Assembly: GCA_026987255.1 (NCBI GenBank)
Contig: JALSNA010000089.1
Span: forward strand, 1-17,733
Source: Hyphomicrobiales bacterium
Lineage (GTDB): Bacteria > Pseudomonadota > Alphaproteobacteria > Rhizobiales > Aestuariivirgaceae
Length of the DNA: 17,733 bases
Direction: 5' to 3'
Of this stretch, positions 1 through 13,434 are shown piece by piece. The translations under genes were made by a program, and so were the position numbers. Each line of letters opens with the position of its first letter. Position 1 is the stretch's first letter. The notes beneath the pieces are model-generated. The model was not told the origin of the DNA. It saw only the letters and a list, made by a program, of their open reading frames with translations, and made no database searches.

Positions 1-94
1 TTATGCTGCATATCAGCGTCCTTTCGCCCTCGACAATACCTTCAGGTATTGCCCGCGGACGAAAGAAAGCTGATATTTTGCCTAAATCCTGCAT
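1..94 (-). CDS. Possible 5' end of an unidentified gene running off the left edge
   Basis: An open minus-strand frame begins with ATG at 94-92 and stays open for 31 codons to the window edge. The peptide begins MQDLGKISAFFRPRAIPEG. A good Shine-Dalgarno sequence, AGAGGG, lies 7 bases upstream of the ATG. I do not recognise the protein. Codon use is odd for this window: ATA, TCA, GCT, CGT and CCT appear, where neighbouring genes favour G or C at the third position. Most of the stretch also forms an imperfect hairpin (10-76). It could be the start of a real gene co-oriented with thiBPQ, an acquired gene, or chance reading of a non-coding repeat. Confidence 0.3.
   Translation of the reverse strand, partial: MQDLGKISAFFRPRAIPEGIVEGERTLICSI
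10..76. repeat. Imperfect long inverted repeat
   Basis: The arms ATATCAGC (10-17) and GCTGATAT (69-76) close a hairpin. Further pairing follows between CTTTCG (21-26) and CGAAAG (60-65), then CAATACC (34-40) with GGTATTG (45-51) around a 4-base loop. An asymmetric internal loop separates the last two helices. There is no T-run typical of a terminator on either side. It overlaps the partial reading frame at 1-94, so it is either a coding sequence with chance symmetry or a small palindromic repeat. It is unrelated in sequence to the repeat at 129-226. Confidence 0.4.
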
Positions 95-128
95 ATGTCA
101 TCCCTCTTTATGAGTCCTGACCCTAACT

Positions 129-226
129 GTCTGAAGACCATCCTCACCCCCTGCCAACCACCCGTAGTCTCCCATGATAGGGATGGTTGGCAGGGGGTGA
201 GGATGGACGCACAAGCGTTTTTCACC
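129..226 (+). repeat. Palindromic intergenic repeat, full copy 1
   Basis: A perfect 22-bp inverted repeat (138-159 with 185-206) surrounds a 25-base loop, and the loop holds a smaller palindrome, TCCC-ATGATA-GGGA. The flanks are GTCTGAAGA on the left and GGACGCACAAGCGTTTTTCA on the right. The same unit, including both flanks and the loop core CTCCCATGAT, recurs in opposite orientation at 9527-9623. The right half alone recurs at 8464-8505. The copy ends just before the thiQ stop codon, so it lies in the 3' untranslated space of the thi operon. It resembles REP or small palindromic elements in form, and it could also act as a transcript 3'-end stem. Confidence 0.8.
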
Positions 227-3607: not shown

Positions 3608-3640
3608 GGGTGCGGGATGATGCGCATCTTGGCGCGTGCC

Positions 3641-3733
3641 CTTTCTCCCTCCGCCGGCATGATCCGGTTCAGGTTCTGCGGGTTGGCCCATGGCCTCTCA
3701 GCCCCGCCATGCGCGGCGGGACACCCCGGAGAG
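3641..3733 (-). promoter_or_regulatory. TPP riboswitch (THI element)
   Basis: On the minus strand the segment has the conserved thi-box parts in order: GGGGTGTCCCGCC, a short variable hairpin (GGCGGG around GCGCAT), the core GCTGAGA (3702-3696), then ACCCGC and GAACCTGAACCGGATCATG (about 3676-3658), closed by GCCGGCGGAGGGAGA. These form the sensor helices that bind the pyrimidine and the diphosphate of TPP. It sits between the thi promoter and thiB and should turn the operon down when TPP is plentiful. Confidence 0.94.
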
Positions 3734-3741
3734 CTGGGGCG

Positions 3742-8463: not shown

Positions 8464-8505
8464 TTGGCAAGGGGAGTGAGGATGGACGCGCAAGCGTTTT
8501 TTCAA
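8464..8505 (+). repeat. Half copy of the palindromic intergenic repeat
   Basis: The segment matches the right half of the 129-226 element: TTGGCAAGGGGAGTGAGGAT, then GGACGCGCAAGCGTTTTTTCA, the same right flank. The left arm is absent, so no hairpin forms. It lies 22 bases after the aas stop codon, a 3' position like that of copy 1 behind thiQ. Confidence 0.7.
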
Positions 8506-9526: not shown

Positions 9527-9623
9527 CTTGAAAAGCGCGTGCGTGTCCATCCTCACCCCCCTGCCAACCGCCCAATCATGGGAGAACTGCGGGGGTGGCA
9601 GGGGGTGAGGATGGTCTTCAGAC
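9527..9623 (-). repeat. Palindromic intergenic repeat, full copy 2 (inverted)
   Basis: Read on the minus strand this segment aligns along its length with 129-226: left flank GTCTGAAGA, arm, loop core CTCCCATGAT, second arm, then GGAC and a GCG..TTTTCA right flank. The arms are 9547-9569 and 9593-9614. One arm has an extra C and one base differs, so the hairpin is slightly imperfect, unlike the perfect copy at 138-206. It ends about 50 bases before the dehydrogenase start codon. Confidence 0.8.
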
Positions 9624-11770: not shown

Positions 11771-12036
11771 TAGGGCGCAGACCCATAAACCCCGCACCGC
11801 CAGTTAGCCGGATTTTTGTTCTGGCAAGGCGCAGCCCCGCAGGAATAGCGGGGCTATTTCAAGGGGGTGCAACACCGCCAGGACGAAAATCCGGCTAACC
11901 CGAAGGGCGTGAATATCGCTCCATCCCAGTGGCCCCCGCCGCTTGCCAATAGAACCACTATTGACGGCGCGTCGCAAGCCACTGATATTTCGCGATATTC
12001 ACGCTGGCGGCGCGGGGTTTATGGGTCTACGCCCTA
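11771..12036. mobile_element. 266-bp MITE-like element with terminal inverted repeats and two hairpin arms
   Basis: The ends are 33-bp inverted repeats, 11771-11803 and 12004-12036, matching at 31 of 33 positions (start TAGGGCG, with ACCCATAAACCCCGC inside). Between them lie two self-complementary arms. Arm 1 (11804-11898) has a 22-bp base stem and an inner stem AGCCCCGC/GCGGGGCT (11833-11855). Arm 2 (11907-12004) has a perfect 13-bp base stem GCGTGAATATCGC, then CAGTGGC/GCCACTG (11927-11984) and CAATAG/CTATTG (11947-11963). The whole could fold as a cloverleaf. GCTC flanks both sides (11767-11770 and 12038-12041), a possible 4-bp target duplication. No coding frame is present. It lies between converging genes, 3 bases from the pntB stop. 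Confidence 0.75.
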
Positions 12037-12039
12037 AGC

Positions 12040-13434
12040 TCACAGGGCCTTGTTGATCTCCTCGACCATTTTCTTGGCATCGCCGAAGAGCATCATGGTG
12101 TTGTCGCGGTAGAACAGCGGGTTGTCGATGCCCGCATATCCTGGCGACAGGGAGCGCTTGACGAACATGACCGTCCTGGCCTTCCAGACCTCCAGCACCG
12201 GCATGCCGTAGATGGGCGAGTTGGGATCCTCCTCGGCGAGCGGATTGGTGATGTCGTTGGCGCCGATGACGAAGGCCACGTCAGCCTCGGCGAACTCCGG
12301 GTTGATGTCCTCGAGCTCGAAGACCTCGTCATAGGGCACCTGGGCCTCGGCCAGCAGCACGTTCATGTGCCCCGGCATGCGCCCGGCCACCGGATGGATG
12401 GCATACTTGATGGTCACTCCGGCCTTTTTCAGCTCATCGGCCATTTCGCGCAGGGCGTGCTGGGCCTGGGCCACCGCCAGGCCGTAGCCGGGCACGATGA
12501 TGACCTTGCTGGCGTTCTTCAGCAGGAAGGCGGCATCTTCCGCCGAGCCGGCCTTGACCGGCTTTTGCTCGCCATCGCCGGCGCCCGCCGCGGCCTGCGC
12601 GCCGAAGCCGCCGAGGATGACGGAGATGAAGGAGCGGTTCATGGCCTTGCACATGATGTAGGAGAGAATGGCGCCCGATGAGCCGACCAGGGCGCCGGTG
12701 ATGATCAGGGCCACGTTGTGCAGGGTGAAGCCGATGCCGGCCGCCGCCCAGCCCGAATAGGAGTTGAGCATGGAGACCACCACCGGCATGTCAGCGCCGC
12801 CAATGGGAATGATGAGCAGAAAGCCCAGGGCGAAGGAGACCAGCACGATGAGCCAGAACAGCGCATGGCTTTCGGTGTTCATGAAGGCGGCGATGAGAAT
12901 GACCAGGAGCGCGCCCAGGGCGATGTTGATGACATGGCGCATGGGCAGCATGATGGGCTTGCCGGACATGATGCCCTGCAGCTTGGCGAAAGCGATGAGC
13001 GAGCCGGTGAAGGTGATGGCGCCGATGGCCACGCCGAGCGACATTTCGATCAGCGAAGAGGCGCGGATGGCTCCGGGTGCGCCGATGCCGAAGGCGGAAG
13101 GGGCGTAAAGGGCGGCTGCCGCCACGGCCACGGCGGCCAGGCCGACCAGCGAATGGAAGGCGGCGACCAGCTGCGGCATGTGGGTCATGGGAATGCGCCG
13201 GGCGATCACCGCGCCGATGCCGCCGCCGATGGCCAGGCCGGCGAGAATCAGCAGCCAGGTGGCAAGGCCCATGGCGGGCATGGCCAGAAAGGTGGTGAGG
13301 ATGGCCAGCGCCATGCCGCCCATGCCCAGATAATTGCCGGTGCGCGAAGAATCCGGATGGGACAGGCCGCGCAGGGCGAGGATGAAGAGCGCTCCGGAGA
13401 CCAGGTAGAGCAGGATGATCAGGTTGTGTGACAT
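12040..13434 (-). CDS. pntB: NAD(P) transhydrogenase subunit beta
   Basis: The subunit of the inner-membrane enzyme that uses the proton gradient to reduce NADP+ with NADH. The protein has 464 residues, full length. Residues 1 to about 265 carry the proton-channel membrane helices, with conserved stretches FHSLVGLAA (93-101) and GGADMPVVVSMLNSYSGWA (212-230). Residues about 290-464 form the NADP(H)-binding domain III, with VPGYGLAVAQAQHALREMAD, HPVAGRMPGHMNVLLAEA and GANDITNPLAEEDPNSPIYG. The last gene of pntAA-pntAB-pntB, 21 bases after pntAB; its Shine-Dalgarno sequence is weak or distant (AGGGGGC). The 266-bp repeat begins 3 bases beyond its stop. Confidence 0.97.
   Translation of the reverse strand: MSHNLIILLYLVSGALFILALRGLSHPDSSRTGNYLGMGGMALAILTTFLAMPAMGLATWLLILAGLAIGGGIGAVIARRIPMTHMPQLVAAFHSLVGLAAVAVAAAALYAPSAFGIGAPGAIRASSLIEMSLGVAIGAITFTGSLIAFAKLQGIMSGKPIMLPMRHVINIALGALLVILIAAFMNTESHALFWLIVLVSFALGFLLIIPIGGADMPVVVSMLNSYSGWAAAGIGFTLHNVALIITGALVGSSGAILSYIMCKAMNRSFISVILGGFGAQAAAGAGDGEQKPVKAGSAEDAAFLLKNASKVIIVPGYGLAVAQAQHALREMADELKKAGVTIKYAIHPVAGRMPGHMNVLLAEAQVPYDEVFELEDINPEFAEADVAFVIGANDITNPLAEEDPNSPIYGMPVLEVWKARTVMFVKRSLSPGYAGIDNPLFYRDNTMMLFGDAKKMVEEINKAL

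Follow-up and report, generated by a model that had tools for sequence, protein, structure and literature searches.

A probable IS5-type MITE with a conserved, two-armed palindromic interior whose hairpins appear to face opposite strands

The 266-bp element at positions 11771 to 12036 of the DNA analyzed here (17,733 nt, hereafter the window) is a mobile, IS5-ended palindrome that inserts into TA at YTAR sites and keeps a conserved fold. We interpret it, with a probability of roughly 0.8, as a MITE of the IS5 superfamily, IS427-like, which is moved in trans and whose interior fold is under constraint as a single strand. MITE interiors are usually regarded as empty filler; the interior of this element appears not to be plain filler, which is unusual for a MITE. 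The first-pass annotation, made from the window alone, had proposed a non-autonomous mobile element with a folding single strand, and this proposal is borne out by copies with sharp edges, the exact empty site of a sister copy, and an insertion sequence with identical ends in the genome of that sister. The parts of the element, together with a truncated element of a second kind at the contig edge, are as follows (window positions):

11771..12036, no strand assigned: whole element, TA to TA (one TA being the target duplication), 266 bp; edges drawn from copies of 264-267 bp (n = 23), distinct flanks and the empty site of a sister copy
11771..11803, plus strand: left terminal inverted repeat, 33 nt; outermost ~17-20 bp similar to IS5/IS427-type ends
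12004..12036, minus strand: right terminal inverted repeat, 33 nt
11803..11899, plus strand: arm 1 hairpin with plus-strand motif orientation, two internal loops and a basal stem formed by 11803-11825/11877-11899
11838..11863, plus strand: arm 1 tip motif CGCAGGAATAG-N5-CTATTTCAAG with a GCA/AA internal loop
11900..11906, no strand assigned: linker mini-hairpin within CCCGAAGGG (CCCTTCGGG on the minus strand)
11907..12004, minus strand: arm 2 hairpin, motif orientation on the minus strand; basal stem 11907-11919/11992-12004
1..125, plus strand: sister element of ~163 bp with TAGGGTCAGGACTCATAAA ends, copy cut off at the contig edge

The terminal inverted repeats are complementary at 31 of 33 positions (94%), and nested stems occupy both arms. 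Predicted folding energies of the 266 nt are -170.9 kcal/mol for RNA (z = -14.8) and -97.3 for DNA (z = -13.9), values equalled by none of 200 shuffles in either case, which confirms the original description of a palindromic element with 33-bp ends and two nested arms. The single strand is indeed predicted to fold into a junction, but not simply into the three-way one first envisaged: between the arms, the RNA fold adds the mini-hairpin at 11900-11906, making the junction four-way, whereas in the predicted DNA fold this hairpin is open. All nine open reading frames overlapping the element are short (31-73 aa), and in this sense the element has no coding capacity, as had been stated. Its location 3 bases past the stop of pntB (12040-13434, minus strand) likewise agrees with the coordinates. 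The GCTC that had been reported on both sides is flush with the left edge but stands 1 base off the right edge, and it is not the target duplication; the duplicated bases are TA, the first and last two of the 266, as revealed by the empty site of the sister copy. A promoter-like match (9 of 12 positions) is located inside arm 2 at 11961-11989 on the plus strand, with two such matches in 801 bp against a shuffle mean of 0.2.

The assembly of the host genome (2.5 Mb in 529 contigs) contains two complete copies and one interrupted copy, in addition to partial copies and loose ends. The second complete copy, on contig C469, is 94% identical to the one in the window, and the copy on contig C81 is split by a different palindromic repeat. 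Four of the eight best own-genome matches stop exactly at a contig end, indicating that the assembly breaks at copies of the element. The 17-bp end GGGCGTAGACCCATAAA occurs 35 times in this genome at up to 2 mismatches (0 for the backward control), and the related end GGGTCAGGACYCATAAA occurs 86 times (1 for the control), with 54 of these 86 arranged as 27 inverted pairs 144-145 bp apart, that is, as sister elements of ~163 bp. Six covariance-model matches of ~254 bp represent a third size class. Several sharp-edged copies, which the first-pass annotation had recommended looking for, are thus present at unrelated sites of this one genome and in other genomes as well, as is typical of a MITE, and the short length, lack of coding capacity and terminal inverted repeats of the element fit the same class.

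Other repeats accompany these copies. On C469, a 68-bp element with ends TAGGATCTGGTCTCAATAAA...GAGTCCGGACCCTA (1766-1833 of the extracted locus) abuts the second full copy and has the TA in common with it; it has the same type of ends, resembling those of the host's own ~254-bp family, and no arms are left. Lone ends of 17-33 bp on eight contigs have no partner within the next 150 bp, as if the remainder had been lost. A second palindromic repeat family, CCATCCTCACCCCCTGCCAACC...GGTTGGCAGGGGGTGAGGATGG-ACGCACAAGCGTTTTT, is found at window positions 129-222, 8470-8501 and 9529-9623, and relatives of it are located inside arm 2 of the C81 copy.

Beyond the host, a pattern derived from the linker and arm 2 retrieved 35 stretches from GTDB genomes, all titled Sulfitobacter, Pseudophaeobacter or Rhodobacteraceae; plasmid-borne copies were found in Phaeobacter and Pseudosulfitobacter, and shorter matches in further Rhodobacterales plasmids. 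A phage search gave no match, and two patterns gave none in viral contigs. At 34 of the 41 places examined, whether found by pattern or fetched, both ends are complementary at 28 of 33 positions or better. These two-ended copies comprise 23 of 264-267 bp and 11 of 276-396 bp, the longer ones with extra palindromes, judged by eye, in the arms or linker. The script detected no credible pair of ends at the other seven places, four of which were later matched end to end by a covariance model. The left flanks, from several genomes, are distinct in all 34 copies checked. Eight Rhodobacteraceae copies carry further palindromes, for example CTCTCGGGACATTGC...CCTGCCGGGCAATGGG, at arm or linker positions.

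The most informative insertion site is that of a Sulfitobacter copy, L106. Its joined flanks match an uninterrupted 241 bp in another Sulfitobacter genome at 91% identity without a gap, and compared with 62 genomes they match in 48, of which 32, including that one, do so in one stretch across the junction, the other 31 at lower identity; the remainder consist of 15 matches to the left side only and the source genome itself in two pieces. The empty site reads CGT-TAG, and after insertion TAG stands at both ends of the element, so that this sister copy displays the target-site duplication and empty site of a MITE, with TA in place of the GCTC that had been anticipated. At a second locus, L121, the flanking gene pair is contiguous in plasmids of Alloyangia, Salipiger and Thioclava (69-73% identity). 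All seven plasmids matching a third site, L122, are occupied and furnish no empty site, and none was found for the window copy, the flank of which is not syntenic in relatives. Among the 68 ends of the 34 copies, 63 are TA, with a purine outside in 66, and Y-TA-R is present on both sides in 32 of 34 copies, compared with 285 of 3,375 TAs in the flanks (8.4%). YTAR is the target of IS5 elements, and its use here with duplication of TA is as expected of the IS5/IS427 group.

The same target bears on the genes next to the element. Seventy-one flanking frames of at least 120 codons read towards 44 elements, and 17 of them stop exactly at the TAG of the element, 5 inside it and 49 before it. By crude gene calls, 12 of 43 elements lie between convergent genes against 33 of 172 background pairs, and we claim no preference. 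An element kept for the host at pntB as a structured RNA or bidirectional terminator would account for the stop-codon spike, for the strong fold on both strands, for the position just after pntB and for a weak terminator-like match inside (11904-11890, minus strand; three in the region against a shuffle mean of 1.0). The spike can also follow from the choice of YTAR targets, and we regard this explanation as very improbable: the element is multicopy, none of five same-genus relatives has a copy after pntB, and none of the 68 ends is followed by at least 5 T in the next 8 bases, that is, by the T-run that accompanies the GC-rich hairpin of an intrinsic terminator. The earlier idea that the element could end pnt transcripts is accordingly unsupported as far as intrinsic termination is concerned. 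Searches of Rfam 15 returned only chance-level matches on the element and, for five diverged loci, matches outside it, so that no known structured RNA family was recovered there. The first-pass annotation had named a single copy, conserved in place and with compensatory changes, as the mark of an RNA or terminator; compensatory changes abound, but the copies are many and scattered, and the five same-genus relatives have none after pntB. Elsewhere in the window, a TPP riboswitch scoring above the Rfam gathering score is located at 3629-3738 on the minus strand, upstream of minus-strand genes resembling an ABC transporter set.

To identify a source of transposase, PF13340 loci were taken from six genomes, four of which had hits (two of them being a Sulfitobacter and a same-genus relative of the host) and two of which, including the host, had none. 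TIR-like ends were present at 6 of 14 PF13340 loci and at 0 of 21 PF13358, Y1 and PntB loci, a comparison for which the end pattern was chosen with the first ends already known and in which 8 of the 14 PF13340 loci are without such ends. The closest counterpart, L144, is a PF13340 insertion sequence of 853 bp with two overlapping frames, which shares its Sulfitobacter genome with L106. The left end of this insertion sequence agrees at 21 of 21 bp with each end of the L106 element, and between the interiors there are chance-level matches only. L144 is of the IS5 family, IS427-like; the IS427-group elements of Paracoccus are described as 832-865 bp long, with a pair of overlapping ORFs and, in most cases, 2-bp repeats (PMC3281130). 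Ends common to PF13340 insertion sequences and the element were found in two Sulfitobacter genomes. In the same-genus relative, the sharing is less exact: insertion sequences there end in TAGGCTCAGGACCCATAAA, and the ends of the window copy agree with them at about 88% over 17 bp, with a chance-level E-value. Thus, the transposase with matching ends that had been called for was found in the genome of the sister copy but not among the 529 contigs of the host, which gave no hits for PF13340, PF13358 or Y1; with no PF13340 hit there, the mobilization in trans of the window copy is something that we infer. An IS630/Tc1-type transposase, suggested by the TA duplication, was rejected, with no PF13358 hit in the host genome and TIR-like ends at none of four PF13358 loci.

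Paired inverted hairpins with conserved tips are also reminiscent of REP doublets, which would make the element a REP/REPIN-like unit mobilized in the form of single-stranded DNA by a RAYT (Y1) enzyme. This reading is largely refuted and scarcely credible, given that only 3 of the 15 carrier genomes gave a Y1_Tnp hit, 2 of them above the cut-off, that the host gave none, and that the TA duplication, YTAR target and IS5-type terminal repeats indicate a DDE enzyme.

The interior of the element carries a signal of its own. In an alignment of 23 copies, 96.1% of the cells are paired, and 42 of 93 pairs exhibit two-sided compensatory changes. Cells with two-sided change number 238, against 80.7 in shuffles and at most 54 with partners slid, and the covariation score is 0.329, against 0.140 shuffled and at most 0.085 slid, the shuffle control being one that does not keep the relatedness of the copies; of five covariation measures, one, further pair types, is not above shuffles (76 vs. 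74.8). The covariance model R1 matched 22 of 39 genomes including the host, or 21 of 38 relatives (9 of 10 at the level of the genus, 6 of 13 at family level and 6 of 15 at order level), and among the R1 matches listed, sizes of ~268, ~223-236, ~175 or ~165 bp recur within a genome. A class-wide search with strict filters retrieved 8 of 385 genomes, host included, which is probably an undercount, judging from the sensitive run on the 39 genomes. Many copies are matched by R1 on their opposite strand as well, a consequence of the likeness of arm 2 to a reversed arm 1. The diverged copies that were folded (11 + 28) consist of an outer stem, in one case cut by a contig edge, around a single arm or a pair of arms. 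A length of 265-278 bp is found repeatedly among two-armed copies from several families, and others measure 223-255 bp. Two further search models were discarded: a core model, R2, had weak structure, and a strict arm-tip pattern was too narrow, matching 3 of 385 genomes, with its backward control matching in 1.

Compensatory changes in a DNA palindrome can also come from template switching, and long palindromes invite hairpin-templated correction. Template-switch correction remains the main rival explanation of the covariation: the element would be an ordinary IS5-family MITE with a functionless interior, the fold of which persists through recently active masters and through correction that mimics covariation. 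The ends, target and copies already explain the mobility, palindromes of this length are prone to such correction, and the fact that 11 of 34 two-ended copies exceed 267 bp implies that the interior tolerates additions. We nevertheless consider this account rather unlikely, in part because the two-armed form recurs across families (despite the shorter copies) and in part because of which bases are conserved. Conservation was measured as the mean top-base frequency in 24 diverse two-armed copies. In the outer stem, it is 0.87 where the outermost 20 bp are paired and 0.54 in the rest; in arm 1, 0.67 at paired and 0.74 at unpaired positions; in arm 2, 0.57 and 0.52, respectively; and at the six paired positions of the linker, 0.88, with the linker CC and GG of the window sequence near-invariant. 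The ends, parts of the arm 1 internal loops and the mini-hairpin linker are therefore the most conserved parts. Frequencies of at least 0.9 are reached at 7 of the 19 unpaired positions of arm 1 and at 10 of its 78 paired ones, the unpaired share being difficult to reconcile with a functionless interior, and at 0 of 30 unpaired and 2 of 66 paired positions of arm 2, which is less conserved than arm 1, loops included.

A second observation at odds with correction concerns the strands. Our earlier counts of G·T against A·C took their helices from folding the same alignment as RNA, a procedure biased by construction towards G·U; hence, 43 copies were folded with Watson-Crick pairs only, and single mismatches within helices were recounted. 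The ratio of G·T to A·C is 40:18 for arm 1 against 14:32 for arm 2, and the outer stem gives 18:25; mismatches of neither type number 35, 69 and 21 in the same order. Counted on each arm's own strand, the ratio is 72:32, with 24 copies for the bias and 7 against (a binomial value of 1e-4 assumes independence, which fails as the copies are related). For 23 diverse copies it is 42:15 (16 for, 4 against, 3 ties), and for the 16 of these outside the alignment that suggested the bias, 29:7 (12 for, 2 against, 2 ties). Turning the element round leaves the count unaffected. With G·T favored on opposite strands in the two arms, each arm looks like a directional hairpin acting as a folded single strand, and the bias agrees with a pair of hairpins of opposite sense, each important in single-stranded form, RNA and single-stranded DNA not being told apart. 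Such an arm-specific bias, with the outer stem as an internal control, is unexpected from symmetric correction. The whole fold has no strand preference, 10 of 23 copies being more stable on the plus strand, which speaks against selection for one whole-strand RNA. The initial view that no RNA strand is favored thus holds for the complete fold but not for the arms taken apart.

The distribution of the element points to transfer between lineages. Identity to the window copy is 90.6-92.9% for four copies from a pair of Rhodobacteraceae metagenome bins, one of which has copies on several contigs, and 63.6-70.3% for the remaining aligned Rhodobacteraceae copies. The PntB encoded in the window is 53-57% identical to that of seven Rhodobacteraceae hosts of copies (48% for one short piece), the corresponding values being 82-87% for five genomes of the genus and 75-76% for two further relatives, one from the family and one from the order. 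From these sequence comparisons, the element seems to have passed from one distant lineage to another, probably between orders, with the caveats that the metagenome bins may contain binning errors and that pntB may have an odd history.

The ends and the core seem not to be inseparable either. TAGG-like IS5-type ends are kept in 22 of 24 diverse copies, the exceptions being L160 and L220, and three single-arm relatives (L162, L163 and L225) have other ends and a similar tip. The occurrence of a similar core or tip within different ends suggests that the cloverleaf core can change its ends. The match in L220 is bounded by entirely different terminal repeats with ends TAGCAGGCTGTTGAAGAACTC, and L160, L163 and L225 are likewise differently bounded. 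The single-arm relative L162 (1501-1675) ends 2 bases before a tRNA gene (1678-1751).

Under the interpretation that we favor, an IS5-type MITE with a constrained interior, the ends would be recognized in trans by an IS5-family transposase, of the IS427 type in the case of the window copy, which would cut the double-stranded element and join it into the TA of YTAR sites. The interior would comprise two directional hairpins on opposite strands, joined by the mini-hairpin and closed by the outer stem, and its folded single strand, DNA or RNA, is probably what is constrained, as covariation, loop conservation and the G·T strand bias suggest. As the arms are directional on opposite strands, either strand and either orientation of insertion would present one arm in the active sense. 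We would suppose, with little confidence, that the folded element is carried on transcripts reading through the 3' ends of genes. A more specific version, which we put forward tentatively and give somewhat less than even odds, is that the cloverleaf core is a portable device, namely, two directional hairpins with conserved internal loops recognized as folded single-stranded DNA or RNA, working in either orientation and equipped with IS5-type ends in the majority of the lineages seen and with different ones in some.

The significance of the element lies in an interior fold kept by compensatory changes across genera and families, together with conserved loops and strand-specific wobble, which offers a testable case of a parasitic DNA element carrying a functional folded strand. 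Should the core be a portable device, a large family of structured mobile elements would be selected for single-strand function. At a practical level, the covariance model allows unannotated repeats in related genomes to be named, and the copies of the element are repeats at which the 529-contig assembly breaks. Insertion at a stop codon leaves a TAG, so that the element may sit harmlessly at gene 3' ends.

The element can be placed among several known systems. REP, BIME and REPIN sequences, associated with RAYT transposases, consist of hairpin units in opposite orientation with a conserved tip sequence; the present element differs in its TA duplication and IS5-type ends, and 12 of 15 carriers gave no Y1 hit. 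Plasmid RSF1010 carries ssiA and ssiB, paired single-strand initiation hairpins that are directional, one per strand, and the likeness to them is one of layout. Correia/NEMIS, ERIC and RUP repeats are short, non-coding and foldable, have terminal repeats and are often situated between genes. MITEPye1 of Paracoccus yeei (PMC11578231) is likewise short, non-coding, foldable and often intergenic, with terminal repeats, but has long stem-loops and IS1182-type ends, whereas the element studied here has a two-armed cloverleaf, covariation and conserved loop bases and is found in several families. The IS427 group of the IS5 family, exemplified by Paracoccus (PMC3281130), also duplicates 2 bp of target, and the fetched PF13340 elements have TAGGNTCNGGACYCAT-kind ends, as does the element, which departs from these insertion sequences in having no transposase gene, a length of 266 rather than ~850 bp and an interior similar at chance level only. 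A two-armed, directional, covarying core is described neither in the titles and opening lines of abstracts of the open-licence papers retrieved by our literature searches nor in Rfam 15. In its mobility and its ends, then, the element is of a known kind, an IS5-family MITE, and what sets it apart is its two-armed, directional, covarying core.
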